Positions 947-10,897 of a DNA stretch of 21,748 bases are shown piece after piece. Below the pieces are notes generated by a model. That model saw nothing but the letters and a program-made list of their open reading frames with translations. It made no database searches and had not been told where the DNA came from. The position numbers were made by a program, and so were the translations under genes. Numbering within the stretch: the stretch's first letter is position 1; every line of letters starts with the position of its first letter. The stretch comes from a virus: the IMG/VR virus record IMGVR_UViG_3300005910_000039, positions 1 through 21,748 of that record; one strand, given 5' to 3'.

Positions 947-1067
947 GAACGGGTGGCGAAAAGGTAAACGCACTGAAGAAAATAATGTGATTGGGAAGTA
1001 AGGATTCCGTTAAAAGCGATATGTCCTAGTACCAACGACGTGTAAGGTTCAACTCCTTACCCTGTTC
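947..1067 (+). ncRNA. tRNA-like RNA domain with non-canonical anticodon arm
   Basis: It has a possible acceptor stem GAACGGG (947-953) with CCTGTTC (1061-1067), a D-arm-like GCG/CGC hairpin, and a T-arm TAAGG-TTCAACT-CCTTA (1043-1059) whose loop fits the TTCRANY rule. The anticodon arm is replaced by CTGAAGAAAATAATGTG (973-989), the same 17 bases found in the RNA at 6297. It is followed by a long insert bounded by TTGG/CCAA. No 5-bp/7-nt anticodon arm and no CCA are present. It could be a decayed tRNA, a tRNA-like part of a larger RNA, or a decoy. The helices were paired by eye. Confidence 0.5.
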
Positions 1068-1416
1068 TAAATTATAACATTTGAATGTTACACTGCTCGT
1101 GGTTAGAGCAATATAAATTATCGCACTGTAGTTTCATCCATTGTACCCGTGTGGTCAGTGGAGCATAAAAACTCTCAAGGGTAGAGTTCTACATATAAGC
1201 CGATATAGTAAGGTCATTCCTTACTAGCAAAACATGTTGTAGTGATTATAGTATGCCTGCGCGGTTGAGACGAAATCTCATGCTATAAAATATCTTAACT
1301 GCTGATAAGCAGAATGTGTCTTGCTAGTAGTGATATGACTACACACATGGCCCTAAGTTACCCTTTTAATGAGGAAAGGCCACGCGTAACGGATGAGGCT
1401 TAGTCATAATCGTTAC
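1068..1416 (+). ncRNA. large structured RNA, family not identified (GOLLD/ROOL-like candidate)
   Basis: There is no ORF here, but many complementary helices. They are TAACAT/ATGTTA (1075-1090), TGCTC/GAGCA (1094-1110), AACTCT/AGAGTT (1170-1188, 7-nt loop CAAGGGT), GTAAGG/CCTTAC (1208-1224), TATAG/CTATA (1247-1287) enclosing GAGA/TCTC, CTGCT/AGCAG (1299-1312), TGGCC/GGCCA (1348-1382) and GTAACG/CGTTAC (1386-1416). A long-range helix CTAGCAA (1224-1230) with TTGCTAG (1321-1327) closes a multi-branched domain. GGGT in the CAAGGGT loop can pair with ACCC at 1145-1148 as a pseudoknot. Large ornate RNAs such as GOLLD and ROOL are known beside phage tRNA genes, and the gene-free stretch is similar in length to them. 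Membership is inference from size, position and complexity only. Confidence 0.5.
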
Positions 1417-1458
1417 AATTAGTTAGTTAGACAGTTAGTAAGAAGGAGATAGGTAGAT

Positions 1459-1719
1459 ATGATAGTTAAGTTTAAAAAAAGGGATTTACAGAACGGCAAA
1501 TATGCAGATGAATCAAATCAAGCGAGTAGTGAAAATGTCTATGACATTATGCCAATAACAATAATTGATAATGTAGTAGATTTTAAAGAGTTTAAGGATA
1601 ACGTACAATTTTATATGTATACAAAGGAAGAAAAAGATATGATAAGCGTACAAAAAGATACATTAGACTATTTCTTTGTAATGAACGACCAAGGTCAAAC
1701 AATAGAAAGAATCAAATAG
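1459..1719 (+). CDS. small hypothetical protein, 86 aa
   Basis: GAAGGAGAT at 1442-1450 precedes ATG 1459 at a suitable distance. The protein is soluble and mixed-charge, with a basic start (MIVKFKKRD) and an acidic, aromatic middle (FYMYTKEEKDMISV). It has no recognised domain. It is bracketed by a 14-bp inverted repeat and follows the structured RNA region directly. Its stop codon lies in a hairpin with a GCAA loop. Confidence 0.6.
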   Translation: MIVKFKKRDLQNGKYADESNQASSENVYDIMPITIIDNVVDFKEFKDNVQFYMYTKEEKDMISVQKDTLDYFFVMNDQGQTIERIK

Positions 1720-1734
1720 ACTAGCAATAGTCTA
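1717..1734 (+). other. stem-loop with GNRA (GCAA) tetraloop over the stop codon
   Basis: TAGACTA-GCAA-TAGTCTA is a perfect 7-bp stem with a GNRA loop, beginning at the stop codon of the 86-aa gene. It is followed by an A+T-rich tract but no clean T-run, so an intrinsic terminator is doubtful. An mRNA-processing or stability element is as likely. Confidence 0.5.
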
Positions 1735-1770
1735 ACTAACTAAAATTTTATTAACAATAGGAGGAATAGT

Positions 1771-1908
1771 ATGAAAGCTTTACCAAAAGAGTTTTTTCAA
1801 AAAACAAGAAAGAAATCAACGAAAAAGGCAGATAATATTACACCTTTCAAATGGTCAAAAGAAGTATTGAACGGAACAAAAAAGGTAACAATGATAAAAG
1901 CTAACTAG
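1771..1908 (+). CDS. short basic protein, 45 aa
   Basis: The start is ATG 1771 behind AGGAGG (1760-1765). The frame runs 45 codons to TAG 1906-1908. The product is strongly Lys-rich (QKTRKKSTKKADN), so it could bind nucleic acid, but no family is recognised. TAG is followed immediately by GAGG of the next gene's binding site, so the two are likely co-translated. Confidence 0.55.
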   Translation: MKALPKEFFQKTRKKSTKKADNITPFKWSKEVLNGTKKVTMIKAN

Positions 1909-1917
1909 GAGGAATGT

Positions 1918-2112
1918 ATGCACGATTATAGAACATTTGAAGAATACAAACAAGATGTTGCTTCTAAACTAGATAAGGAAGAACTAACTCATTGGTGTTA
2001 TGATATGTCAAGTCAATTAAACCATATAACTAGTTTTGTTAAAAACTTACCAAAAGATATGACAATCAGTGATATTAAAGAGACAATATTAGAAATAGGC
2101 GAAGAAACTTAA
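1918..2112 (+). CDS. small hypothetical protein, 64 aa
   Basis: TAGGAGGAATGT precedes ATG 1918. The protein is acidic and predicted mostly helical by eye (FEEYKQDVASKLDKEELTHW). It contains no recognised motif. It lies 9 bases after the 45-aa gene and just before the HNH-bearing element starting at 2125. Confidence 0.6.
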   Translation: MHDYRTFEEYKQDVASKLDKEELTHWCYDMSSQLNHITSFVKNLPKDMTISDIKETILEIGEET

Positions 2113-2124
2113 ATAAGTTTATAT

Positions 2125-2569
2125 GAGTAGTGGCGGTTGTATAAGGAGTGATATAATGGAAAAAACTTGTTGTGTATGTAAAGAAACTAAACCTTTAAAT
2201 GAATTTAGAAAAGAAAAAGGTAAGAGTTATGATAGAGCAGGTATGTGTAAGCTTTGTAAAAGAGAGCTTGAAAGATTATGGCGAGAAGAAAATAGAGAAA
2301 AGATAAAAGAAAGACAAAGAGATTATTATAAAAAACACCAAGAAGAAATTAAACAAAAAAGAAAAGATAACTACGACCCAAAGAAATCAAAAGCAAGGGG
2401 AATGGTTAGAGAAATTAAAAAAGAAAAATGTATATTTTGTGAGAATATAGGGGAAAAACATCACTCTAATTATGATGAACCAACAAATATAGTATTTTTA
2501 TGTAAGAGTCATCATAAACAGGTACATGATGGAACGTTGAGTATATAACATCCTTATCTACTCACTAAT
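2125..2569 (+). mobile_element. tRNA-like element interrupted or replaced by an HNH gene
   Basis: The left edge, GAGTAGTGGCGG (2125-2136), matches the start of the tRNA-like RNA at 6297 in 11 of 12 bases. The right edge, TATCTACTCACTAAT (2555-2569), matches its end exactly over 15 bases. Between them lies the HNH gene instead of the tRNA-like core. GAGTAG (2125-2130) pairs with CTACTC (2558-2563). ATAAGG (2141-2146), which includes part of the HNH ribosome binding site, pairs with CCTTAT (2552-2557). The likely reading is insertion of a homing endonuclease gene into a copy of the tRNA-like element. Replacement of the core in one step is also possible. Confidence 0.55.
2156..2548 (+). CDS. HNH homing-type endonuclease with zinc motifs, 130 aa
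   Basis: Probable DNA endonuclease of the HNH superfamily, cutting DNA to promote its own spread. An N-terminal zinc-knuckle-like segment has C5/C8 and C31/C34. A Lys/Glu/Arg-rich helical linker spans about 38-75. The C-terminal HNH core shows C92-x2-C95, H102-H103, N111, C116 and H119-H120 (KHHSNYDEPTNIVFLCKSHH). AAGGAG at 2143-2148 selects ATG 2156. An in-frame ATG at 2123 lies inside the tRNA-like flank and lacks a good binding site. The gene occupies the middle of a tRNA-like element. Its cleavage site is not visible but is probably in or near that element. Confidence 0.75.
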   Translation: MEKTCCVCKETKPLNEFRKEKGKSYDRAGMCKLCKRELERLWREENREKIKERQRDYYKKHQEEIKQKRKDNYDPKKSKARGMVREIKKEKCIFCENIGEKHHSNYDEPTNIVFLCKSHHKQVHDGTLSI

Positions 2570-2591
2570 TTTTAATTAAGAAGATGATAAC

Positions 2592-2780
2592 ATGAAGTTT
2601 TACATAGAATATTGTGATATAGTAGCTTTTGTTCAAGATATAGATGAACAGGGGCCTTTATACACCTTAGACGTATATGACGCATTAGATGTGCAAGATC
2701 CAGTATTAGAATTTTATTTAATGCAGACAGGTCATAACAGTTATGAAAAAGAACAAGTGTATACAAGAGAGTTACACTAA
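2592..2780 (+). CDS. small acidic hypothetical protein, 62 aa
   Basis: The frame starts at ATG 2592 with only a weak purine-rich signal upstream (AAGAAGATGA). The product is acidic and aromatic (FYIEYCDIVAFVQDIDEQG), without a recognised family. It ends three bases before the first tRNA gene. The minus-strand frame over it is a shadow. Confidence 0.5.
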   Translation: MKFYIEYCDIVAFVQDIDEQGPLYTLDVYDALDVQDPVLEFYLMQTGHNSYEKEQVYTRELH

Positions 2781-2783
2781 ATT

Positions 2784-2859
2784 GGTGGAGGTAGCATAAA
2801 GGTAATGCACTAGCCTGTGAAGTTAGCAGATATGAGTTCGAATCTCATCGTTCACCCCA
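2784..2859 (+). tRNA. tRNA-His (GTG)
   Basis: Cloverleaf with anticodon arm CTAGC-CTGTGAA-GTTAG (anticodon GTG) and T-arm ATGAG-TTCGAAT-CTCAT. The encoded G at 2784 lies opposite C73, the G-1 identity element unique to tRNA-His. CCA is encoded at 2857-2859. There is one mismatch low in the acceptor stem. First gene of the array. Confidence 0.93.
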
Positions 2860-2863
2860 AATT

Positions 2864-2939
2864 GGCCCCATAGTCTAGTGGTCTAAGACACTGCCCTTTC
2901 ACGGCAGCAACCCGGGTTCAAATCCCGGTGGGGTCACCA
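2864..2939 (+). tRNA. tRNA-Glu (TTC)
   Basis: Acceptor GGCCCCA pairs with TGGGGTC. The anticodon arm has loop CTTTCAC with anticodon TTC, and the T-arm is CCGGG-TTCAAAT-CCCGG. CCA is encoded at 2937-2939. It is complete and canonical, starting five bases after tRNA-His. Confidence 0.95.
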
Positions 2940-2944
2940 ATTAT

Positions 2945-3020
2945 GCCCACTTAGCTCAGTGGATAGAGCACAGGATTTCTAATCCTGCGGTCCCAGGTTC
3001 GAGTCCTGGAGTGGGCGCCA
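2945..3020 (+). tRNA. tRNA-Arg (TCT)
   Basis: Acceptor GCCCACT pairs with AGTGGGC. Anticodon arm is CAGGA-TTTCTAA-TCCTG (anticodon TCT, codon AGA). T-arm is CCAGG-TTCGAGT-CCTGG. CCA is encoded. The AGA codon is common in A+T-rich genomes. Confidence 0.95.
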
Positions 3021-3041
3021 AAAAGATTAGAGGTGTTACAA

Positions 3042-3389
3042 ATGGAAAGTATTTTTACAAGAGAAATTAAGTTAACACCAGAGGGATGTAAGAGGTTCTT
3101 AGAAATAATGAATGAGCCAATAGACCCTAAAAGAATAATTAAGATTACGGAGAACCCTAACAAAGTTCCTGTGGAAGAATATTTTAAGATAATGAAGGCA
3201 TACCATATAATCCCTAAGCCAAAAGGTAGATGGGGATTACAGAGACATAATGCCACTAGGGCTACTAAATTATTTGATGATAAAGATGAAGCAGTTTCAT
3301 ATTTTAAAAGTAAACACAAGACGGGTAGATTATACATTCATAGAGACACTGGTTCTATATCTGATACAATAAATTTACCGCAACAGTAA
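3042..3389 (+). CDS. hypothetical protein with DUF2188-like C-terminus, 115 aa
   Basis: AGAGGTG at 3030-3036 favours ATG 3042 over the in-frame GTG at 3033. Residues about 3-28 (FTREIKLTPEGCKRFLEIMN) recall the motif at the end of DUF1778/TacA-type antitoxins. Residues about 60-106 (a Trp-Gly start, RATKLFDDKDEAVSYF, then LYIHRDTGSI) match the pattern of the DUF2188 family, small proteins of unknown role. It lies alone between tRNA-Arg(TCT) and tRNA-Asn. The DUF2188 call is moderately supported; the antitoxin resemblance is weak. Confidence 0.65.
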   Translation: MESIFTREIKLTPEGCKRFLEIMNEPIDPKRIIKITENPNKVPVEEYFKIMKAYHIIPKPKGRWGLQRHNATRATKLFDDKDEAVSYFKSKHKTGRLYIHRDTGSISDTINLPQQ

Positions 3390-3399
3390 TAAAATAAAC

Positions 3400-3475
3400 G
3401 CTTTAGTAGCTCAGCTGGCAGAGCGCTTGACTGTTAATCAAGATGTCGGAGGTTCGAGCCCTTCCTAGAGCGCCA
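3400..3475 (+). tRNA. tRNA-Asn (GTT)
   Basis: Acceptor GCTTTAG pairs with CTAGAGC with one G-T. Anticodon arm is CTTGA-CTGTTAA-TCAAG (anticodon GTT). T-arm is GGAGG-TTCGAGC-CCTTC. CCA is encoded at 3473-3475. It is followed by a structured gene-free stretch. Confidence 0.94.
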
Positions 3476-3486
3476 TAATAAAATAC

Positions 3487-3685
3487 AAGTCCGAGATGAC
3501 TCTATAAACTAAGCCCCAGAGAGCCACTCAACGCACATTGAGACTGGGTATAGGAATAGCAAGCCCTTGGTAATTAGTGGCGGGAACAAGGTGAAATGTA
3601 CTAGTTTTAATAGATAATGTGATGAAAAGACTAGACATGCGAAACCACAAGGACGTAGCTGCCCCTTGTAAATATAGGCAGGGAC
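3487..3685 (+). ncRNA. structured RNA region between tRNA-Asn and tRNA-Ser(GCT)
   Basis: No ORF. An extended arm is built from CTATA (3502-3506)/TATAG (3549-3553), CCCAG (3515-3519)/CTGGG (3544-3548) and CTCAA (3527-3531)/TTGAG (3538-3542). Its right side is almost continuous, with one unpaired A, and its left side has bulges. Further helices are CCTTG/CAAGG (3565-3591), CTAGTTTT/AAAAGACTAG (about 3601-3634, with ATAATGTGAT in the loop) and CTGCC/GGCAG (about 3659-3681). It resembles no tRNA and no intron core I recognise. Function is unknown. Confidence 0.5.
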
Positions 3686-3687
3686 AT

Positions 3688-3777
3688 GGAGGTATACTCA
3701 AACGGTTAAGAGGAATGGTTGCTAACTATTTAGATCGTTAATTCGGTGCGTAGGTTCGAATCCTACTGCCTCCGCCA
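3688..3777 (+). tRNA. tRNA-Ser (GCT)
   Basis: Class II tRNA with a long variable arm. Acceptor GGAGGTA pairs with TGCCTCC. The anticodon loop TTGCTAA gives anticodon GCT (codons AGC/AGT). T-arm is GTAGG-TTCGAAT-CCTAC. CCA is encoded at 3775-3777. Confidence 0.94.
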
Positions 3778-3786
3778 AAAATATAT

Positions 3787-3874
3787 GGGGAGTTACTCAA
3801 GTGGCTTAAGAGACTGGTCTTGAAAACCAGCAGATCGAGCAATCGGTGCAGGGGTTCAAATCCCTTACTCCCCG
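3787..3874 (+). tRNA. tRNA-Ser (TGA), ends at nucleotide 73 with no CCA; interrupted 3' end
   Basis: Acceptor GGGGAGT pairs perfectly with ACTCCCC (3867-3873). Anticodon arm is CTGGT-CTTGAAA-ACCAG (TGA). The T-loop is TTCAAAT. Unlike its neighbours, the discriminator G3874 is followed by CGGC, not CCA, where a GIY-YIG element begins. A second copy of nucleotides 60-76, ending in CCA, lies at 4566-4582. The gene could still mature by 3' trimming and enzymatic CCA addition. Confidence 0.9.
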
Positions 3875-3909
3875 CGGCTACATGATATTGCCTTCTCGTG
3901 GCGTAGCTG
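3875..3909 (+). other. conserved-shape hairpin at the left end of the GIY-YIG element (Ser)
   Basis: CGGCTAC (3875-3881) pairs with GTAGCTG (3903-3909). An 8-nt left bulge follows, then GCC/GGC closes a 7-nt loop TTCTCGT (3893-3899). The hairpin at 5571-5607 has the same plan with a different stem sequence, which implies selection for structure. Confidence 0.65.
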
Positions 3910-3950
3910 TTTAAACTAAAATATCAAAGATAGAAAGGAGCTATTTAATT

Positions 3951-4565
3951 ATGGCATACATCTACAAAATTATAAACAAGAAAAATGGTAAATGTTATAT
4001 CGGAAAGACAGAATCATTTGATCCTTATTCAAGATGGACAGAGCATAAAGCAGAAAATAGGCGTGCCAGGTCCAATCGAGCCCTCTATAGTGCTATGAGA
4101 AAATATGGAGAAGAATCCTTTACCTTTATGGTATTAGAAAAAACTGAGGAACCAAATAAACGTGAAATTGATTATATTACCCTCCATGATAGTTATCATA
4201 GTGGTTACAATGAAACATTAGGAGGCGATGGTAGGAGTTATTTAAACTTAGACACTAATGATGTCTGTATGTACTATCTAGCCGTTAATTCAATAGCAAC
4301 AACAGCAGAATATTATAAATGTGATGTCGGGACTATACGTAACATCTTATATAATAAGAATATCCCGACTTTAACTGGGGCGCAAGTTACTAAAAATAAA
4401 ACTAAAAAAGCCGTTGCTCAGATAGATAAAATAACAGATATGATTATAGCAACCTTTGAGTCTACAATGGAAGCAGAAAGAGCTGTGGGAGGGAATAAAC
4501 ACATTGCTGATGTGTGTAATAGAAAAAGAAAAACTGCGGATGGGTACAAGTGGAAGTATATATAG
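3951..4565 (+). CDS. GIY-YIG homing-type endonuclease with NUMOD1-like tail, 204 aa
   Basis: Predicted site-specific DNA endonuclease. The GIY-YIG nuclease domain covers about residues 1-95: YIYKI and CYIGKT form the two signature strands, SRWTEHK holds the conserved Arg, REIDYI the metal-binding Glu, and GYNETLGGDG the end of the fold. A helix-turn-helix-like segment spans about 105-140 (TAEYYKCDVGTIRNILYNKN). A NUMOD1/IENR1-type DNA-binding repeat spans about 155-204 (EAERAVGGNKHIADVCNRKR). GAAAGGAG at 3932-3939 sets ATG 3951. The stop codon abuts a copy of the 3' end of tRNA-Ser. It is related throughout to the gene at 5658, including the binding site and first codons. Its target is inferred to be a tRNA-Ser 3' end. 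Confidence 0.88.
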   Translation: MAYIYKIINKKNGKCYIGKTESFDPYSRWTEHKAENRRARSNRALYSAMRKYGEESFTFMVLEKTEEPNKREIDYITLHDSYHSGYNETLGGDGRSYLNLDTNDVCMYYLAVNSIATTAEYYKCDVGTIRNILYNKNIPTLTGAQVTKNKTKKAVAQIDKITDMIIATFESTMEAERAVGGNKHIADVCNRKRKTADGYKWKYI

Positions 4566-4582
4566 TCCCTGGCTCTCCGCCA
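4566..4582 (+). repeat. second copy of tRNA-Ser(TGA) nucleotides 60-76 with CCA
   Basis: TCCCTGGCTCTCCGCCA directly follows the GIY-YIG stop codon. Compared with 3861-3874 it supplies T60, the 3' T-stem strand, the acceptor 3' strand and G73, then the CCA absent from the upstream tRNA. It is a remnant or spare 3' end, not a whole tRNA. Confidence 0.75.
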
Positions 4583-4612
4583 AATTTAAAATTAATAGAA
4601 GGAGGTAATAAT

Positions 4613-4801
4613 ATGGACAAATTAGCGAAGAGATACAAGGACAAATATAACCAAGAAGTAAATGCAAAACGAAATATGTACAACAGACTAAAACGATACG
4701 ACAAACTAAAAAAAGCGGTAGAGTCTGAAGACAGTGTTTATGTAAATCAGTTATTAGAAGATATAAACGAAAGCAACAAAAATTATAAATTGCTCATCTA
4801 A
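4613..4801 (+). CDS. small basic helical protein, 62 aa
   Basis: GAAGGAGGT at 4599-4607 selects ATG 4613. An in-frame ATG at 4550 lies inside the GIY-YIG gene and is rejected. The protein is rich in Lys, Tyr, Asn and Arg (KLAKRYKDKYNQEVNAKRNM) and probably a single coiled helical unit. No family is recognised. It ends three bases before tRNA-Gln. Confidence 0.6.
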   Translation: MDKLAKRYKDKYNQEVNAKRNMYNRLKRYDKLKKAVESEDSVYVNQLLEDINESNKNYKLLI

Positions 4802-4804
4802 AAT

Positions 4805-4878
4805 TGCCCCTTGGTGAAGTGGTATCACACCACACTTTGACTGTGGCATCCGAGGTTCGAATCCTTGAGGGGCAACCA
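4805..4878 (+). tRNA. tRNA-Gln (TTG)
   Basis: Acceptor TGCCCCT pairs with AGGGGCA, with T1-A72 as usual for tRNA-Gln. Anticodon arm is CCACA-CTTTGAC-TGTGG (TTG). The T-arm loop is TTCGAAT. CCA is encoded at 4876-4878. Confidence 0.94.
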
Positions 4879-4881
4879 AAT

Positions 4882-4956
4882 GTGCTGCTAGCTCAATGGT
4901 AGAGCACCTCACTTTTAATGAGGTGGTTGGAGGTTCAAATCCTTCGCAGCACACCA
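4882..4956 (+). tRNA. tRNA-Lys (TTT)
   Basis: Acceptor GTGCTGC pairs with GCAGCAC. Anticodon arm is CCTCA-CTTTTAA-TGAGG (TTT). T-arm is GGAGG-TTCAAAT-CCTTC. CCA is encoded at 4954-4956. An HNH gene starts 18 bases later, but this tRNA's 3' end is intact. Confidence 0.95.
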
Positions 4957-4973
4957 AAATAAAGGAGATAATT

Positions 4974-5489
4974 ATGGAAAAGTGGAAACCTCTTATTTAT
5001 AATACTGTCGATTACGGGGTATTTTATGAAGTCTCTAATTTAGGCAGAGTGCGAAACGCAAAGACTAAAAGAGTTGTTAAATTAAACTCCTCACAAACAG
5101 GTTATTTATGCTATGTTGGAAGTTTAGGTAGTCGTTCTAAAAGCAAGTCATTTAGAATCAATCGTGCAGTTATGTGTTCTTTTGAGCCAGCTGCGGATAC
5201 GACAAAGGATGTAAATCATATAGATGGAGATAAACACAATAATACAATAAGTAATTTAGAGTGGTGTTCGGCAAGTGAAAATATAAGGCACGCATACCAA
5301 AATAAGTTAATGAGCCGTCGGACAGGTTCAACCAACTCTGCTGCTAAGTTATCAAATGAGGCCATTAAAAAAATAAGAGAACTATATATACGAGGAAACA
5401 AAGAATTCGGATGTAGAGCACTAGGGAAAAAGTATAATGTGGCTCATACAACAATCTCCGACATTGTGAATAACATTAGTTGGATATGA
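4974..5489 (+). CDS. NUMOD4-HNH endonuclease with C-terminal HTH, 171 aa
   Basis: Predicted free-standing homing endonuclease. A NUMOD4 domain spans about residues 3-48 (EKWKPLIYN, YEVSNLGRVRN). The HNH_3 core spans about 78-108 (VNHIDGDKHNNTISNLEWCS; H82, N95). A helix-turn-helix segment ends the protein at about 125-171 (GCRALGKKYNVAHTTISDIV). AAAGGAGAT at 4961-4969 selects ATG 4974. The in-frame ATG at 4896 lies inside tRNA-Lys. It sits between intact tRNA-Lys and tRNA-Arg(TCG). Unlike the GIY-YIG genes, it has no duplicated tRNA end. Confidence 0.88.
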   Translation: MEKWKPLIYNTVDYGVFYEVSNLGRVRNAKTKRVVKLNSSQTGYLCYVGSLGSRSKSKSFRINRAVMCSFEPAADTTKDVNHIDGDKHNNTISNLEWCSASENIRHAYQNKLMSRRTGSTNSAAKLSNEAIKKIRELYIRGNKEFGCRALGKKYNVAHTTISDIVNNISWI

Positions 5490-5496
5490 TAAATAT

Positions 5497-5570
5497 ACCC
5501 TTGTGGCGCAATGGATTAGCGCAGTTGGTTTCGAACCAATTGGTTGAAGGTTCGAGTCCTTCCAGGGGTG
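5497..5570 (+). tRNA. tRNA-Arg (TCG), ends at nucleotide 73 with no CCA; interrupted 3' end
   Basis: Acceptor ACCCTTG pairs with CAGGGGT (5563-5569, one T-G). D-arm is GCGC/GCGC. Anticodon arm is GTTGG-TTTCGAA-CCAAT (TCG). T-arm is GAAGG-TTCGAGT-CCTTC. After G5570 comes GGAACAC instead of CCA: a GIY-YIG element starts here. The 3' copy at 6276-6282 (CAAGGGT) complements ACCCTTG perfectly, better than the adjacent strand does. Confidence 0.9.
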
Positions 5571-5607
5571 GGAACACGAGTTTAACCACTTCCACGTAGT
5601 GTGTTCT
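5571..5607 (+). other. conserved-shape hairpin at the left end of the GIY-YIG element (Arg)
   Basis: GGAACAC (5571-5577) pairs with GTGTTCT (5601-5607). A 10-nt left bulge follows, then ACT/AGT closes a 7-nt loop TCCACGT (5591-5597). The counterpart at 3875 has unrelated stems but the same geometry and a similar loop (T-Y-C-W-C-G-T). Confidence 0.65.
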
Positions 5608-5657
5608 GGATAAAGCAAGGAGTTAAACAATGTAGTATAGAAAGGAGCTGTTTAATT

Positions 5658-6269
5658 ATGGCATACATCTATAAAGTTACAAACAAGAATAACGGAAAGA
5701 TTTATGTAGGTAAGACTAATCAAGATGTCAAACACCGTTGGAAACAACATTGCAACGATTTCAAGAGAACTAGAAACGAAAAGCGGCCATTATATGCAGC
5801 AATAAAAAAGTATGGAAGCAGTGCTTTTGAGATTTCGATTATAGAAGAAGTAATATCAGAGAAGAGTAGTGATAGAGAGATTTACTGGATTAACACTTTA
5901 GGAAGTTACAAGAATGGATATAACGCAACTAAAGGTGGCGATGGTACTATTTATATTGATTACGATTTAGTAGAAAGAACGTTTAATAACTTAGGATCAG
6001 TTTTAAAAACTACAGAGTTACTTGGTATACATGAGCAGACAGTTAGAAAAATATTGAAACAAAGGAATATCAGACTATTAACAAGATCAGAAATAGGAAA
6101 ACAGGCTAGTAAACCAGTGGGACAATACACCTTGGATAATGAAGTTATTGCAGTGTTTGGTTCTAGCAAAGAAGCCGCTAGAAGGCTAAATCTAAGAAGC
6201 TGTAATATATCAAGAACCTGTAATGGAAAAAGAAAAACAGCTTACGGATGCTTGTGGAGATTTATATAG
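5658..6269 (+). CDS. GIY-YIG homing-type endonuclease with NUMOD1-like tail, 203 aa
   Basis: Paralogue of the gene at 3951 and predicted to nick or cut a tRNA-gene target. The GIY-YIG domain spans about residues 1-98 (YIYKV, IYVGKT, HRWKQH with the Arg, DREIYWI with the catalytic Glu, GYNATKGGDG). A helix-turn-helix-like region spans about 105-140 (TELLGIHEQTVRKILKQRN). A NUMOD1-type repeat forms the C-terminus (KEAARRLNLRSCNISRTCNG). GAAAGGAG at 5640-5647 and the shared leader GAAAGGAGCTGTTTAATT fix ATG 5658. A longer in-frame start at 5601 lies inside the leader hairpin. The stop codon directly precedes a copy of the tRNA-Arg 3' end. Confidence 0.88.
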   Translation: MAYIYKVTNKNNGKIYVGKTNQDVKHRWKQHCNDFKRTRNEKRPLYAAIKKYGSSAFEISIIEEVISEKSSDREIYWINTLGSYKNGYNATKGGDGTIYIDYDLVERTFNNLGSVLKTTELLGIHEQTVRKILKQRNIRLLTRSEIGKQASKPVGQYTLDNEVIAVFGSSKEAARRLNLRSCNISRTCNGKRKTAYGCLWRFI

Positions 6270-6286
6270 TCTCTCCAAGGGTGCCA
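6270..6286 (+). repeat. second copy of tRNA-Arg(TCG) nucleotides 60-76 with CCA
   Basis: TCTCTCCAAGGGTGCCA follows the GIY-YIG stop codon. CAAGGGT is the perfect complement of the acceptor 5' strand ACCCTTG at 5497. G73 and CCA follow. The T-stem half (CTCTC) is diverged, so this is a partial 3' copy. Confidence 0.75.
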
Positions 6287-6296
6287 AATAATAAAT

Positions 6297-6408
6297 GAGT
6301 AGAGGCGGAAAATGTAGACGCGCTGAAGAAAATAATGTGTCCTCATACGGTGGGTAATCTTAGTGAACCACGCAAGGACGGTATAGAGTGTAAATCTCTA
6401 TCTACTCA
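6297..6408 (+). ncRNA. tRNA-Leu-derived tRNA-like RNA with altered anticodon arm
   Basis: Acceptor GAGTAGA (6297-6303) pairs perfectly with TCTACTC (6401-6407). The D-region GGCGGAAAATGTAGACGCGCT is nearly that of tRNA-Leu(TAG) at 6417. A T-arm-like TAGAG-TGTAAAT-CTCTA is present, but its loop breaks the TTC rule. The anticodon arm is replaced by CTGAAGAAAATAATGTG (6323-6339), shared with the RNA at 947. An extra arm GTCCT/AGGAC enclosing GTGG/CCAC spans about 6339-6378. There is no CCA (ACTA follows). Paired acceptor and arms argue against simple decay. Role unknown. Confidence 0.6.
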
Positions 6409-6416
6409 CTAATATG

Positions 6417-6500
6417 CCCTTATGGCGGAACTGGTAGACGCGCTAGCCTTAGAAGCTAGTCTGTAACAGGGTGCAAGTTCGACTCTTGCTAGGGGCACCA
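6417..6500 (+). tRNA. tRNA-Leu (TAG)
   Basis: Class II tRNA. Acceptor GCCCTTA pairs with TAGGGGC. Anticodon arm is CTAGC-CTTAGAA-GCTAG (TAG). It has a variable arm and T-loop TTCGACT. CCA is encoded at 6498-6500. Its D-region matches the tRNA-like RNA just upstream. Confidence 0.94.
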
Positions 6501-6504
6501 AATG

Positions 6505-6589
6505 CTCGGATGACGGAATTGGTAGACGTAGAGGACTTAAAATTCTCTGTCCTTGTGGCGTGGGAGTTCAAGTCTCCCTCTGAGCACCA
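6505..6589 (+). tRNA. tRNA-Leu (TAA)
   Basis: Acceptor GCTCGGA pairs with TCTGAGC. Anticodon loop CTTAAAA gives TAA. The long variable arm is followed by T-arm GGGAG-TTCAAGT-CTCCC. CCA is encoded at 6587-6589. Confidence 0.94.
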
Positions 6590-6598
6590 AATAAATAT

Positions 6599-6679
6599 GC
6601 GGGTCGAATATGCGTAGTGATATCGACAAAGAAAAGAGAGAGGCATAAAGATTATTCTAGTCTCTTTCAACCCGCTCCA
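6599..6679 (+). ncRNA. tRNA-like RNA with acceptor stem and CCA but no cloverleaf
   Basis: GCGGGT (6599-6604) pairs with ACCCGC (6670-6675), followed by T and an encoded CCA (6677-6679), exactly as a tRNA ends. Inside there are two hairpins instead of three canonical arms: GTCG-ATAT/ATAT-CGAC (about 6603-6626, one bulged A) and AAAGAGA/TCTCTTT (about 6633-6667) with a long loop. No anticodon arm and no proper T-arm are seen. The 81-nt size equals that of a tRNA. It is either a heavily remodelled tRNA or a tRNA mimic. Confidence 0.55.
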
Positions 6680-6683
6680 ACTT

Positions 6684-6760
6684 GGGGCATTAGCGTAGCG
6701 GTCTAACGCGCCACCCTGTCACGGTGGAGATCACGGGTTCAAATCCCGTATGCCTCGCCA
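6684..6760 (+). tRNA. tRNA-Asp (GTC)
   Basis: Acceptor GGGGCAT pairs with ATGCCTC. Anticodon arm is CCACC-CTGTCAC-GGTGG (GTC). T-arm is ACGGG-TTCAAAT-CCCGT. G73 and CCA are encoded. Confidence 0.95.
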
Positions 6761-6775
6761 ATTTAAAAATAATAA

Positions 6776-6851
6776 GGCTGAGTAGCTCCAACGGTAGAGC
6801 AGGCGGTTGAAGGCCGTCGTGTTGTAGGTTCGATTCCTACCTCAGCCACCA
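6776..6851 (+). tRNA. tRNA-Phe (GAA)
   Basis: Acceptor GGCTGAG pairs with CTCAGCC. Anticodon arm is GGCGG-TTGAAGG-CCGTC (GAA). T-arm is GTAGG-TTCGATT-CCTAC. A73 and CCA are encoded. Confidence 0.94.
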
Positions 6852-6854
6852 AAC

Positions 6855-6931
<77 letters not shown>

Positions 6932-6945
6932 TAAGAAAAATAATG

Positions 6946-7148
6946 AGGCCTTAAGTGGTCAACAGGTAGCCTAAGTATACTAGTAATTGCTTAGGTGGCG
7001 TAATGTCTTAATGTGAATCCATCGGTCGCCTATTTCGATAGAGCGGGCTAGGATTTTGTTTCATGGAAAACCTTTGTAGGTAACTCCTACATAAAAAAGT
7101 AACAAAGGCCTTAGGAGTTGCAAACGCTTTAGCCTTATTAGAAAGCGT
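6946..7148 (+). ncRNA. structured RNA region between tRNA-Ile and tRNA-Thr
   Basis: No ORF. AGGCCTT (6946-6952) and AAGGCCT (7105-7111) can close a domain. The domain holds CCTAAG/CTTAGG (6970-6995), GGCG/CGCC (6997-7030), CTAT-TTCG-ATAG (7030-7041, a stable UUCG loop), CCTTTG/CAAAGG (about 7071-7108) and the alternative TGTAGG/CCTACA (7075-7091). A perfect 7-bp hairpin ACGCTTT/AAAGCGT with an 11-nt loop (7124-7148) follows. Family not recognised. Too many consistent helices for ordinary spacer. Confidence 0.5.
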
Positions 7149-7155
7149 AAGACAA

Positions 7156-7231
7156 GCCGAAATAGCTCAACTGGTAGAGCAACTCACTTGTAATGAGTAG
7201 GTTGTGGGTTCAAGTCCTACTTTCGGCACCA
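7156..7231 (+). tRNA. tRNA-Thr (TGT)
   Basis: Acceptor GCCGAAA pairs with TTTCGGC. Anticodon arm is ACTCA-CTTGTAA-TGAGT (TGT). The T-loop is TTCAAGT. CCA is encoded at 7229-7231. Confidence 0.95.
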
Positions 7232-7236
7232 TATTT

Positions 7237-7307
7237 GGGGAAAAGTATGATACTAGTGCAATAAATATAATTGCATAATTTAGGTTTGAATCCTAATGAC
7301 TCCACCA
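7237..7307 (+). ncRNA. degenerate tRNA-like RNA with CCA end, lacking U33
   Basis: GGGG/CTCC starts an acceptor stem with mismatches below it. D-arm is reduced to AGTA-TGA-TACT. A 5-bp anticodon-type stem GCAAT/ATTGC holds a 7-nt loop AAATATA with A instead of T at position 33. T-arm is TTAGG-TTTGAAT-CCTAA, with T for C56. CCA is encoded at 7305-7307. It is most simply a decaying tRNA gene. A maintained decoy is possible because stems, length and CCA persist. Confidence 0.55.
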
Positions 7308-7312
7308 CAATT

Positions 7313-7398
7313 GGGAGTGTACTCAAGCGGTCAACGAGGTTAGACTGTAAATCTGATGGCTTTAGCCTTCGAAGGTTCGAATCCTTCAGCTCCCACCA
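7313..7398 (+). tRNA. tRNA-Tyr (GTA)
   Basis: Class II tRNA of the bacterial type. Acceptor GGGAGTG pairs with AGCTCCC, with one mismatch at the base. Anticodon arm is TTAGA-CTGTAAA-TCTGA (GTA). The variable arm is followed by T-arm GAAGG-TTCGAAT-CCTTC. CCA is encoded at 7396-7398. Last gene of the array. Confidence 0.93.
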
Positions 7399-7839: not shown

Positions 7840-10419
7840 ATGAAGACTATTATACATATAAACAAGAAGCAAGCCGTTTTCACACGTAAGACTGGTAACG
7901 CTTTATATATATCATTTAGTTTAGATTTAGACGCCCTCCGTAGAATAAAAGAAATGCCCAAAAGAATATATCACTCTCAATGGTTAGAGTGGGAGATACC
8001 TATGAAAGATCTAGGTTTGTTCATGATGTTATTCAGAAGTTTTCCAATGACCACCGAGTCACCAGAGGAAACTAAGGATGTTGTAAATAAGATAAAGGAA
8101 TATAAAAAAGGTATTGCTGGTTTCGATGTGTCACAAATAAACGAAAATTTTAAATATATTACTAAGCCGTTTCCTCACCAACATGAAGCATTTATTTATG
8201 CACAGAATCACGAGATGTTCTTATTAGCAGATGACCAAGGGTGTATCTCAGGAGACGCCGTTGTTCAAATAAACTTTGGGAGAGCTTCTCAGAAGGTGTC
8301 ATTACGAAAAGCCTACGAGTTATTTAAAAAACATAATAGGAAGCCTCCATATATGTGCAGATGCTTAAAGAATAATATTTTTGGTCAACATGGAGTTAAA
8401 AATATATTATACAAAGGAGAACAACAAACCTATAAATTAACATTAACAAATGGATATCAAATTAAAGCCACTGGAGATCATCTAATTTTAACTGATGGGG
8501 GATATATTGAATTAACTAGTTTAAAGGTTAATGATAATATTGTTACAAATGGTACTTCTGTTTGTAAGTTATGCGGGAGTCATGAGAATCTAATCACTTA
8601 TAAGTACGCTAAATATTTGGGACACTGTAAAAAATGTGCTTATCAGCTAAGAGATTTAGATAGACATCCTAAAGAACATAAAAGAATGGACGCAGATGGT
8701 TACGTAGTATTATCAGGTAGTGATTATTGGGAGCATCCACGAAGAAATGCTTCTGGATATGTCTATGAACATATTATAATTATGGAAAACCATGTTGGAA
8801 GGCAAATAACAAATCAGGAAGTAGTCCATCATAAAAATAGGGATAGGTCCGACAACAGAGTAGAGAATTTAGAGTTATTATCAATGTCGGAGCATAGACA
8901 GAGGCATGTACCAGACTCAATAAATAACTTAATGGGTAGGAACTATAAATCAAAATCAGGATTGGACATCATAGTTGTTCCGAAATATGAGAAAGTCATC
9001 TCTGTTGAGAAGGATATAATTCAAGATGTATATGATATTGTTATGGACGAACCCTATCACAACTTTGTGGCAAATGGAATAGTAGTCCATAACTGTGGGA
9101 AAACTAAATGCGCAATAGACATAGCAGTTAGCAGACGAGGACAATTCAAACATTGTTTAATTATCTGTGGAGTTAATGGTTTAAAATGGAACTGGGAAAA
9201 AGAAATAGAACTACATAGTAATGAGAGTTGTCACATCCTTGGTACATATAAAGGTAAAGGAAATGTAACAAGACAGGGAGTCTCTACAAAGAAAATAGAA
9301 TCTCTGAATACAGAGAGAGACGACTTCTTTCTTATAACAAATAAAGAATCTTTGAACAACAAAGAGATACTTGCTATCTTAGAAGATAAGTGCAAGTCTG
9401 GTGAAATAGGAATGGTTATCATAGATGAGTTCCACAAAGTTAAAAACTACAGAAGTCAGGTAGGAAAGAATATTCACAAGTTATCAAGTTTCTATAAAAT
9501 GGCCTTGACAGGAACACCTTTAATGAATAGTCCGGTCGACTTATACAATTTGTTAAGATGGGTAGGAGTAGAAAATAGATCTCTTACTAACTTCGAGAAT
9601 AGATACTGTATGTTTGCTAGTGGTTTCATGGCGAGAGAAGTAGTAGGGTTTAGGAACATGCCAGAACTTCAAGAACGATTACACAGAGTTCAATTAAGAA
9701 GAAAGAAAGAAGATGTTTTAGACTTGCCACCAAAAATATTGTCAGTTTCGTATGTTGAACTTGACAAAGGTCAGCAAACATTGTATGATGATATTAAATT
9801 AGAACTAATCTCACAAATAAATGAAATAAAATTACTACCTAACCCATTGGCTAAATTAATAAGGTTAAGACAAGTAACAGGAGCCCCATCAATTTTAGAT
9901 CCAGAGTTGGGTTACGGAGTTAAGCTTGAGAGATTATTAGAACTTGCACAGGAATTAAAAGGACAGGGTTCTAAATTCATTGTGTTTAGTAATTGGAAAC
10001 AGGTAATACGAAGAGTAGAAGAGATGTTCAGAAGTTATGGTATTACATTTACGACAATTGATGGAGATGTAAAGGATACTGACAAGATGGCTAATATAGA
10101 TAGCTTTCAAAATGATCCGAATGTAACAGGACTATTAGGAACTACTGGTGCTTTAGGTACTGGGTTCACAGCACATGCTGCTGAATATGTATTTTTCCTT
10201 GATAGCCCATGGAACGAAGCCAACAAACGTCAAGCAGAAGATCGTGCCCATAGAATAGGAACTAAGCACACTGTTAACGTTGTAACCATCATAGCCAAAG
10301 ATACAATAGATGAAAGAATTGAAGATTTAATTTATAGAAAAAAAGAAATGTCGGATTTCCTTGTAGACGGTAAAGGTAAATCAGATTGGAACGAAATACT
10401 TACAAGTTTGTTAGAATAA
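7840..10419 (+). CDS. SNF2-family DNA helicase/translocase with an intein in its P-loop, 859 aa
   Basis: Superfamily 2 ATP-dependent DNA translocase, presumably for phage replication or recombination. After a leader domain (about 1-105), the Walker A motif is split. Residues 128-134 end LLADDQG and the motif resumes at C419-G-K-T, giving ADDQGCGKTK once the 284-residue intein (135-418) is removed. Motif II is DEFH (529-532), motif III TGTP (557-560) and motif VI QAEDRAHRIG (798-807). These are typical SNF2 motifs, although motif II is DEFH rather than the usual DEAH. The mature extein protein would be about 575 aa, normal for phage SNF2 helicases. AGGAGG sets ATG 7840 under the promoter at 7788. 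Activity should require protein splicing because the intein breaks the nucleotide-binding loop. Confidence 0.92.
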   Translation: MKTIIHINKKQAVFTRKTGNALYISFSLDLDALRRIKEMPKRIYHSQWLEWEIPMKDLGLFMMLFRSFPMTTESPEETKDVVNKIKEYKKGIAGFDVSQINENFKYITKPFPHQHEAFIYAQNHEMFLLADDQGCISGDAVVQINFGRASQKVSLRKAYELFKKHNRKPPYMCRCLKNNIFGQHGVKNILYKGEQQTYKLTLTNGYQIKATGDHLILTDGGYIELTSLKVNDNIVTNGTSVCKLCGSHENLITYKYAKYLGHCKKCAYQLRDLDRHPKEHKRMDADGYVVLSGSDYWEHPRRNASGYVYEHIIIMENHVGRQITNQEVVHHKNRDRSDNRVENLELLSMSEHRQRHVPDSINNLMGRNYKSKSGLDIIVVPKYEKVISVEKDIIQDVYDIVMDEPYHNFVANGIVVHNCGKTKCAIDIAVSRRGQFKHCLIICGVNGLKWNWEKEIELHSNESCHILGTYKGKGNVTRQGVSTKKIESLNTERDDFFLITNKESLNNKEILAILEDKCKSGEIGMVIIDEFHKVKNYRSQVGKNIHKLSSFYKMALTGTPLMNSPVDLYNLLRWVGVENRSLTNFENRYCMFASGFMAREVVGFRNMPELQERLHRVQLRRKKEDVLDLPPKILSVSYVELDKGQQTLYDDIKLELISQINEIKLLPNPLAKLIRLRQVTGAPSILDPELGYGVKLERLLELAQELKGQGSKFIVFSNWKQVIRRVEEMFRSYGITFTTIDGDVKDTDKMANIDSFQNDPNVTGLLGTTGALGTGFTAHAAEYVFFLDSPWNEANKRQAEDRAHRIGTKHTVNVVTIIAKDTIDERIEDLIYRKKEMSDFLVDGKGKSDWNEILTSLLE
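8242..9093 (+). mobile_element. intein with HNH homing endonuclease domain (in SNF2 helicase)
   Basis: Encodes host-protein residues 135-418. Splicing block A begins at C135 (CISGDAVVQI). Block B has the TxxH signature T211-G-D-H214 (KATGDHLILT). Blocks F and G end the intein: YDIVMDEPYHNFVANGIVVHN, split here as YDIVMDEPYHNF then VANGIVVHN, with N418, followed by C419 as the +1 residue. Between them lies a zinc ribbon (C242-x2-C245, C263-x2-C266) and an HNH nuclease (H330-H331, N339, N343, QEVVHHKNRDRSDNRVENLE). It is therefore a full intein with an HNH rather than the commoner LAGLIDADG nuclease. Insertion is inside the P-loop, between G134 and C419. Confidence 0.92.
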
Positions 10420-10421
10420 CA

Positions 10422-10450
10422 TTGACAATGTTGCAAAAATATGTTAGTAT
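10422..10450 (+). promoter_or_regulatory. sigma-70/sigma-A promoter
   Basis: TTGACA (10422-10427), a 17-base spacer, TAGTAT (10445-10450) preceded by TGT (extended -10). A start point near 10457 would leave the AAGGAGAGG binding site (10459-10467) and ATG 10475 in the message. It gives a second transcription start for the genes after the helicase. Confidence 0.82.
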
Positions 10451-10474
10451 ATATTTATGGAAGGAGAGGACTAT

Positions 10475-10897
10475 ATGATAAGTTTTAACCTAGAAAAGAA
10501 AGAAGACGAAGAATTAGACGCAATGGAGTTCGCGGTAAAATATTACTACGAAAACAACGAAACAAAGAAAAAGGTTGAGAAAGAAGTAAAGAAACACGGT
10601 GCTACTATAAAGGAAAACCTTGAAGTTGGAGACAGCGCAACGTATCCCGCAGTAGGGCTAAAAGCATCACTCACAGCTAAGAAATCTACCTACTTACTAG
10701 CAGCAAAGTTAGAAGCAAAACTAGAGTCTCTTAAAGGTATTGTACCTGGAGTTGAAGAATGTTTTGTTACGACTGTAACGGTTGACCAAAATAAAGTAGG
10801 AGAACTAATAGCAGCAGGTTTACTTGATCCAACATTGTTAGAAGAATGTACGGAAGAAAAAGTAACAGGCGCGTTATATGTGAAACCTATAAAATAG
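10475..10897 (+). CDS. hypothetical early phage protein, 140 aa
   Basis: Start ATG 10475 is chosen because AAGGAGAGG lies seven bases upstream. The in-frame ATG at 10457 falls on the expected transcription start. The N-terminal part is acidic then Lys-rich and helical (ETKKKVEKEVKKHGATIKEN). The C-terminal part (about 70-140) is a small alpha/beta-like region (VTTVTVDQNKVGELIAAGLL). No family is recognised. A replication or recombination accessory role is inferred only from position directly behind a strong promoter. Confidence 0.7.
   Translation: MISFNLEKKEDEELDAMEFAVKYYYENNETKKKVEKEVKKHGATIKENLEVGDSATYPAVGLKASLTAKKSTYLLAAKLEAKLESLKGIVPGVEECFVTTVTVDQNKVGELIAAGLLDPTLLEECTEEKVTGALYVKPIK

Follow-up and report, generated by a model that had tools for sequence, protein, structure and literature searches.

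Mimicry of transfer RNA (tRNA) is known from RNA viruses, from transfer-messenger RNA (tmRNA) and from Y RNAs. Bacterial Y RNAs (YrlA, RF02553) are noncoding RNAs with a long arm that imitate the tRNA body but lack its anticodon arm; tmRNA has tRNA-like ends and, in the place of the anticodon arm, a long helix that stops at the T arm. We describe here two RNAs of a comparable plan, RNA A and RNA B, which are encoded in a viral fragment of 21.7 kb (IMG/VR record IMGVR_UViG_3300005910_000039, positions 1 to 21,748; this whole stretch is hereafter called the window). They are very probably conserved, non-translating tRNA mimics, and they have relatives that are widespread in phages and prophages. 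Judging by their sequences, both derive from tRNA-Leu.

The family to which RNA A and RNA B belong resembles Y RNAs in that it mimics a tRNA body lacking the anticodon arm and bears a long arm. Unlike for Y RNAs, the RF02553 model had no match above its cut-off of 69, either in the window, where its score was no higher than 26.1 bits for a stretch spanning two ordinary tRNAs (6820-6880), or in the scanned loci, and Ro-like proteins are rare in the records. With tmRNA (RF00023) the two RNAs share the tRNA-like ends and the long helix running to the T arm, but no tag reading frame or pseudoknots were recognised in them, their D stem is of Leu type, and the tmRNA model had no match above its cut-off in the window or in the interval 860-1460.

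Phage T4 has two stable RNAs in its tRNA cluster, rnaC (139 nucleotides, nt) and rnaD (119 nt), whose roles are given as unknown in two papers (PMC9697503, PMC3014915). Like the family, rnaC has a perfect T arm beside a long hairpin; unlike it, rnaC and rnaD show no Leu-type D arm that we could see. The two T4 RNAs were rejected as family members, since covariance model R1 (see below) gave only a partial match of 8.3 bits on the T4 tRNA region, at the T arm of rnaC. The pseudo-tRNA tRNA-Other of Bacillus cereus lies beside a genomic island and has been proposed to have a non-translational role; it differs from RNA A and RNA B in keeping a Trp anticodon (PMC3399842).

Structure and detection of RNA A and RNA B

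RNA A (947-1067) and RNA B (6296-6408), both on the plus strand, were found by a cloverleaf scan and by R1. A sequence-only reading of this DNA had proposed that they are tRNA-like RNAs with the anticodon arm replaced, and the scan, the folds and the R1 matches bear this out. Its limits for RNA A also hold, but RNA B starts at 6296 rather than 6297, as its acceptor (TGAGTAG/CTACTCA) indicates. The two RNAs have in common a Leu-type D arm (stem GCG/CGC), an acceptor of 7 base pairs (bp) and a 6-bp T stem, and in the folds of both the 5-bp, 7-nt anticodon arm that should follow the D stem is absent.

In RNA A, the sequence and the fold place the 5' strand of the acceptor, GAACGGG, at 947-953, paired with CCTGTTC at 1061-1067, and the D arm at 956-971, with its stem at 956-958/969-971 and the loop GG at 963-964. 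A linker starts at 972, and a long irregular arm (985-1041) with the outer helix AUGU/ACGU leads directly up to the T arm (1042-1060), whose loop is UUCAACU and which R1 also recognises. In RNA B, the acceptor strand TGAGTAG (6296-6302) pairs with CTACTCA (6402-6408), the D arm spans 6305-6321 (stem 6305-6307/6319-6321) with UG replacing GG in the loop, and the linker starts at 6322. The long arm of RNA B (6338-6380), closed by the outer helix UGUCCU/AGGACG (6338-6343/6375-6380), stops 2 nt before the T arm (6383-6401), which has the loop UGUAAAU, of the type UGYAAAU found in subfamily II (see below). The base after the acceptor is U in RNA A (U73) and C in RNA B (C73), and no CCA follows in either case. 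The acceptor stems of the two RNAs differ in sequence with pairing kept in both; the parts outside the shared segment thus differ strongly, as had been stated, in sequence but not in pairing. An origin from tRNA-Leu, which had been claimed for the second copy, is supported for RNA B, yet this copy does not stand alone, the D arm of RNA A being of Leu type as well.

For the cloverleaf scanner the acceptor, the D arm and the T arm are mandatory, and the anticodon arm is not taken into account. RNA A obtained a score of 53 and RNA B 48; the window's ordinary tRNAs scored 52-59, and 300 Markov sequences as long as the window reached 47 at most. Non-tRNA matches reached 51 in 140 unrelated viral loci (1.24 Mb), none of them with a perfect T loop. 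The T loop is perfect in RNA A and imperfect in RNA B. Because of this imperfect loop and of the unrelated loci reaching 51, the scan score of RNA B alone is not decisive; R1 is. This model, built from 30 subfamily II-type members with the window left out, ranked RNA A first in the window (49.4 bits, expect value (E) 7.3e-11) and RNA B second (46.1 bits, E 4.8e-10), each over positions 1-116 of 116, and gave 29.3 and 28.5 bits to the window's own two tRNA-Leu genes. In 90 unrelated loci serving as a negative control, it found only a tRNA-Leu (35.2 bits) and a 16.5-bit match.

Neither RNA was reported in the window by ARAGORN or Rfam. Under the tRNA model RF00005, RNA A and RNA B were unmatched in the window at E up to 1, and RNA A was unmatched in 860-1460 at E up to 5; a search of the latter interval for Rfam RNAs, including RNase P, gave none beyond a chance match of 14.8 bits. 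Since tRNA finders seek an anticodon arm, RNAs without one are missed. The folding energies of RNA A and RNA B are not unusual (z -1.2 and -1.1), such z-scores having been mostly uninformative in this analysis.

In both RNAs the D stem is followed by the same 17-mer, CTGAAGAAAATAATGTG, at 973-989 and 6323-6339. As the sequence-only reading had noticed, the two copies are exact; they are the only ones in the window, where no further match with up to 3 mismatches was found (0.18 expected). The segment consists of a single-stranded, A-rich linker ending in AUAA and of the first bases of the long arm. That it would be a fixed, conserved feature was not confirmed. All 21 exact viral matches elsewhere lie in coding-looking contexts without tRNA-like ends, a relaxed pattern (ACGCNCTGAAGAAAAT) retrieved 119 stretches of which none was tRNA-like among the 80 examined, and the relatives carry other linkers. 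The 17-mer is local to RNA A and RNA B and is not conserved across the family.

A family of relatives in phages and prophages

Relatives were collected in several ways. A Leu pattern, made of D-arm and T-arm sequences 48-78 nt apart, a spacing wider than that of normal tRNA-Leu, occurred in at least 120 stretches of viral contigs, of which 80 loci were examined and 78 matches scored. Among the viral matches listed, the 7-bp acceptor and the 5-bp T stem were both free of mismatches in 54 of 78, of which 47 lacked a perfect anticodon arm; the other 24 were dropped because the acceptor or the T stem failed. The same pattern in species genomes gave 24 cloverleaves among 80 matches, 16 of them without anticodon arm. 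With control patterns, cloverleaves amounted to 33 of 79 for class I (29 without anticodon arm) and to 11 of 80 for Ser (all 11 without). Anomalies of the anticodon arm thus occur outside Leu as well, although the class I set, described further on, differs in kind. In addition, a helicase profile gathered 80 loci; in loci of the helicase/polymerase group, eight scanner matches of at least 51, located in six loci, were not tRNAs according to ARAGORN when tested alone, and two of the eight passed the tRNA cut-off of Rfam. The eight include two tandem Leu-type RNAs without anticodon arm in one locus (L197), at 10528-10635 and 10638-10750.

Direct blastn of the RNA A or RNA B regions against phages and plasmids yielded nothing relevant. 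With one family member as the query, blastn found relatives in Lactobacillus, Leuconostoc and Bacillus phages and in one Tenericutes phage, as well as short matches in other phages. We inspected 12 records (Bacillus phi3T, Lactobacillus LP65, ATCC 8014-B2, phiJL-1, Sha1, zrk29-2, Satyr, P1, Lpa804, H1-Guo, LpeD and phiLM33_01). All of these except zrk29-2 are annotated, and none of the eleven lists an RNA feature at the position of the element; the overlapping open reading frames (ORFs) are the hypothetical orf80 in LP65 and the start of phi3T_57 in phi3T. Of 37 phage or virus records searched with R1, 28 had a match (E up to 1e-7), a count that includes the model's own source records; P1, Dp-1, phage G and six virus records had none at this threshold. 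One of the matches is a true tRNA-Leu, in locus L736. In the family of a Pediococcus contig, presumably Lactobacillaceae, 18 of 201 genomes were matched by R1 (E up to 1e-8), among them G091, whose matches are only 80 nt long and may be ordinary tRNA-Leu; in the family around a Pseudomonas contig there were none (0 of 198 genomes).

Proteins encoded next to family members match phage protein families in 18 of 20 cases, two of which hit only families of unknown function, and match none in the remaining two. The named neighbours include, in several prophages, late activators and small subunits of terminase, and further HNH, SSB, polymerase, replication, endolysin and ParB-like proteins. The family is widespread in phages and prophages. 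The search for further phage examples, the lack of which would have meant decay, turned up many. We found no description of the family in the titles and abstracts of open-licence PMC papers, and a description elsewhere is possible.

Two subfamilies can be distinguished. Subfamily I has a 5-bp T stem, a UUCRA loop and often the acceptor AGUCAGG; subfamily II has a 6-bp T stem and mostly a UGCAA loop. Among the traits of the latter, the 6-bp stem is present in both RNA A and RNA B, with the loops given above. In an alignment of 30 subfamily II-type members, selected for paired stems so that pairing is 100 % by construction, two-sided changes occur in 12 of 16 pairs, with 125 such paired cells versus a shuffled mean of 32.8. 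The acceptor and T stems covary. Together with the acceptor stem, the family retains the D domain and the T arm of tRNA-Leu; a short linker stands where the anticodon arm would be, and a long helix, whose sequence changes freely, extends to the T arm. The tertiary pair A15-U48 is kept across the family (A15 in 59 and U48 in 57 of 61 sequences), and both subfamilies retain a tRNA-Leu body with an A15-U48 core. The likeness to tRNA-Leu accordingly comprises the D domain and A15-U48, and in subfamily I also A73 and U55. The absence of the anticodon arm is shared with laboratory minimal tRNA-Leu, which is charged without it (PMC9976931); unlike this construct, the family is natural and has a long extra arm, and subfamily II has the 6-bp T stem and G55.

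Possible roles and competing explanations

Because both subfamilies keep the tRNA-Leu body and the A15-U48 core, we favour the view that RNA A and RNA B belong to a phage-borne family of non-decoding tRNA-Leu mimics that compete for proteins binding the tRNA body. Taken as a whole, this view seems to us evenly poised between right and wrong; the competitor or decoy mechanism is put forward only tentatively. The RNA would be made through the tRNA-processing path, with RNase P, 3' trimming and CCA addition, and would fold into the tRNA elbow. Being unable to read codons, it may then act, most likely as a competitor or decoy, by occupying proteins that recognise the tRNA body, the elbow or the acceptor end, and the variable arm might tune the partner or the stability. 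The RNAs are unlikely to be decoys for nucleases that cleave the anticodon, since they lack the loop which these enzymes attack; decoys for proteins reading the acceptor end or the elbow are possible.

Several observations weigh against this view. The outer helix of the long arm of RNA A has only 4 bp, and no promoter-like site was found upstream of RNA A on the same strand. RNA B departs from tRNA at the elbow, with U18 for G18 and U56 for C56, and may be losing its function. Under R1 a genuine tRNA-Leu (locus L736) scores 44.9 bits, so that the model by itself cannot tell every true tRNA-Leu from a family member. Finally, the family members are candidate RNAs known from DNA sequence, and their protein partners are putative.

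We considered the possibility that the tRNA part is a scaffold for a variable payload, the constant ends giving processing and stability and the arm binding lineage-specific targets as a regulatory RNA does. Members of the Lactobacillus-phage type indeed have near-identical ends (GTGCTTG...CAAGCAC and the T arm) around unrelated middles, and lengths range from 83 nt (Sha1) to 216 nt (LP65). Yet 37 of 60 distinct Leu-type sequences have a helix of 5 bp or more that stops 0-3 nt short of the T stem, versus a mean of 17.7 and a maximum of 28 in 200 shuffles, which argues that part of the middle, at least, is structural; furthermore, no target was found, though no systematic target search was made. 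We regard this explanation as unlikely. The start of the helix has some sequence context: UAA stands directly before it in 8 of the 37 and accounts for 4.2 % of linker-zone trinucleotides. In RNA A and RNA B, which share AUAA in the linker, the best-scored helix begins at this motif or up to 3 nt around it, not exactly behind it.

The RNAs might also be ligands of the Y RNA kind, partners of a ring protein of the Ro60/TROVE type to which the tRNA-like part would recruit clients. DUF2828, a Ro60/TROVE-like protein, is encoded in 7 of the 11 records of insert-bearing class I RNAs (alignment A4) versus 1 of 19 other records searched, a protein near another class I RNA (locus L514) matches the TROVE and Ro60 models, and about 500 nt separate a DUF2828 gene from one member of the Leu type (L266, 4615-4719). 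However, among the records with Leu-type RNAs, many of which are fragments, DUF2828 and TROVE were each found in 1 of 51, and the ORFs scanned in the window, itself a fragment, encode neither. Together with the failure of the YrlA model mentioned above, this makes a Ro60-type partner quite unlikely for the Leu-type family.

Another explanation is that the RNAs are chargeable minimal tRNAs, leucylated by leucyl-tRNA synthetase (LeuRS) and delivering or sequestering leucine. LeuRS needs A73 and D/T-loop contacts rather than the anticodon, and E. coli tRNA-Leu deprived of its anticodon and variable arms is still leucylated if these are present (PMC9976931). U8, A14, A15, U48, U55 and A73 are jointly kept in 21 of 32 sequences of subfamily I, but in 1 of 29 of subfamily II, to which RNA A and RNA B probably belong. 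Of these 29 sequences, 25 have G55 and only 12 have A73; conservation of A73 across the whole family was not found in the 61 sequences. RNA A has U73 and RNA B C73, and C73 abolished charging of the minimal RNA (same source). From base 73, the loss of G18 and C56 in RNA B and these subfamily counts, leucylation would be plausible for subfamily I and is unlikely for RNA A and RNA B; as an account of the family, we consider it very unlikely.

We attach little credence to the idea of decayed tRNA-Leu genes. The tRNA array in or near which RNA A and RNA B are located does contain other odd copies, and the elbow bases of RNA B are lost, but the stems covary and the same architecture recurs in many phage lineages. 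Hardly any credence is left for the reading as tRNA genes whose anticodon arm is interrupted by a small intron. Inserts that leave a perfect anticodon arm once they are taken out do exist in some tRNA-like genes of class I in phages, but when any stretch was allowed to be cut out to rebuild a 5-bp, 7-nt arm, the Leu family did so no more than shuffles (0-2 observed versus 0.3-0.7 expected per junction position, n = 47).

If the family is real, tRNA mimicry would be common in DNA phages. With a confidence just short of even, we propose that phages of Bacillota, apparently of Bacteroidota, and others carry previously undescribed natural tRNAs without anticodon arm, having hypervariable arms and binding proteins outside translation, and that T4 rnaC and rnaD and the class I/DUF2828 set are further branches of the same viral mimicry. 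This would give a frame to a decades-old question, the role of stable RNAs in phage tRNA clusters such as those of T4, and the members in phi3T, phiJL-1, Sha1 and LP65 make their purpose testable now.

Insert-bearing class I RNAs, setting of the two RNAs and other odd tRNAs

Eleven tRNA-like RNAs carry an insert in the anticodon stem (loci L484, L494, L482, L499, L511, L549, L555 of Aeromonas phage Aeh1, L522, L540, L521 and L661). They are of class I, one being Ser-type, and the insert consists of a hairpin and a CAGCAA-like motif; its removal restores a perfect anticodon arm in several of them. In the junction test on class I (n = 29), 4 cases versus 0.01 expected fell at one junction and 3 versus 0.02 at the neighbouring one. 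Each of these RNAs could be a phage Y RNA incorporated into a tRNA; otherwise the insert is a small tRNA intron of a new kind. Locus L494 has four of them in tandem (10101-10768) immediately following a DUF2828 gene, on a contig that also encodes a tmRNA and about two dozen tRNAs.

The window contains a replication module (an SNF2 helicase with an intein, DnaB, a primase-like protein and a family A DNA polymerase) resembling those of Streptococcus phage Dp-1 and virus MS1, with identities of about 39-40 % for the polymerase and 48-50 % for the helicase. ARAGORN finds an array of 16 ordinary tRNA genes on the plus strand (2785-7398), 14 of which encode CCA, as neither RNA A nor RNA B does. RNA B lies inside this array and RNA A 1.7 kb before it, and no ORF of at least 60 amino acids covers either. 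RNA A is followed by about 370 nt (1068-1440) without an ORF of 60 amino acids, in which several hairpins are seen by eye. Within the array, 6598-6676 is a tRNA-like oddity of two hairpins with GCGGG/CCCGC ends and TCCA (fold z -3.0), and 7238-7308 forms a cloverleaf with a CCA end, A33 and a mismatched acceptor. Two GIY-YIG endonuclease genes (3787-4580 and 5496-6289) adjoin the 3' ends of tRNA-Ser and tRNA-Arg; 3' of each, a replacement 3' end (CTCTCCGCCA and CAAGGGTGCCA, respectively) could, by eye, rebuild the acceptor and CCA.

Other loci contain further unusual RNAs. Phage phiJL-1 (locus L353) has a 60-nt tRNA-like RNA at 1894-1954 that consists of acceptor, D and T arms, its anticodon arm being replaced by no more than a short linker. 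Five loci (L249, L252, L262, L297 and L307) encode tRNA-Leu-like bodies with CCA and a long variable arm, in which the anticodon arm looks normal and has loops such as CTGTTAA. Near the tandem RNAs of L197, a hammerhead type II match at 9016-9081 scored 31 bits, below the cut-off of 37. An 88-nt tRNA-like RNA ending in CCA (locus L024, 3517-3604), upstream of the same helicase gene, has G3-U70 and scored 43.4 bits under the tmRNA model (cut-off 47), with no mRNA-like part. In the array of a related phage (locus L152), odd tRNA-like RNAs at 1912-1994, 2073-2208, 2387-2502 and 2669-2742 show a giant variable arm, an anticodon loop of about 50 nt with a hairpin, or missing arms. At the start of this contig (1-164), beside the array, a fragment resembles class B RNase P RNA (21.7 bits, E 2.9e-4, cut-off 97), with stretches of the conserved core present.

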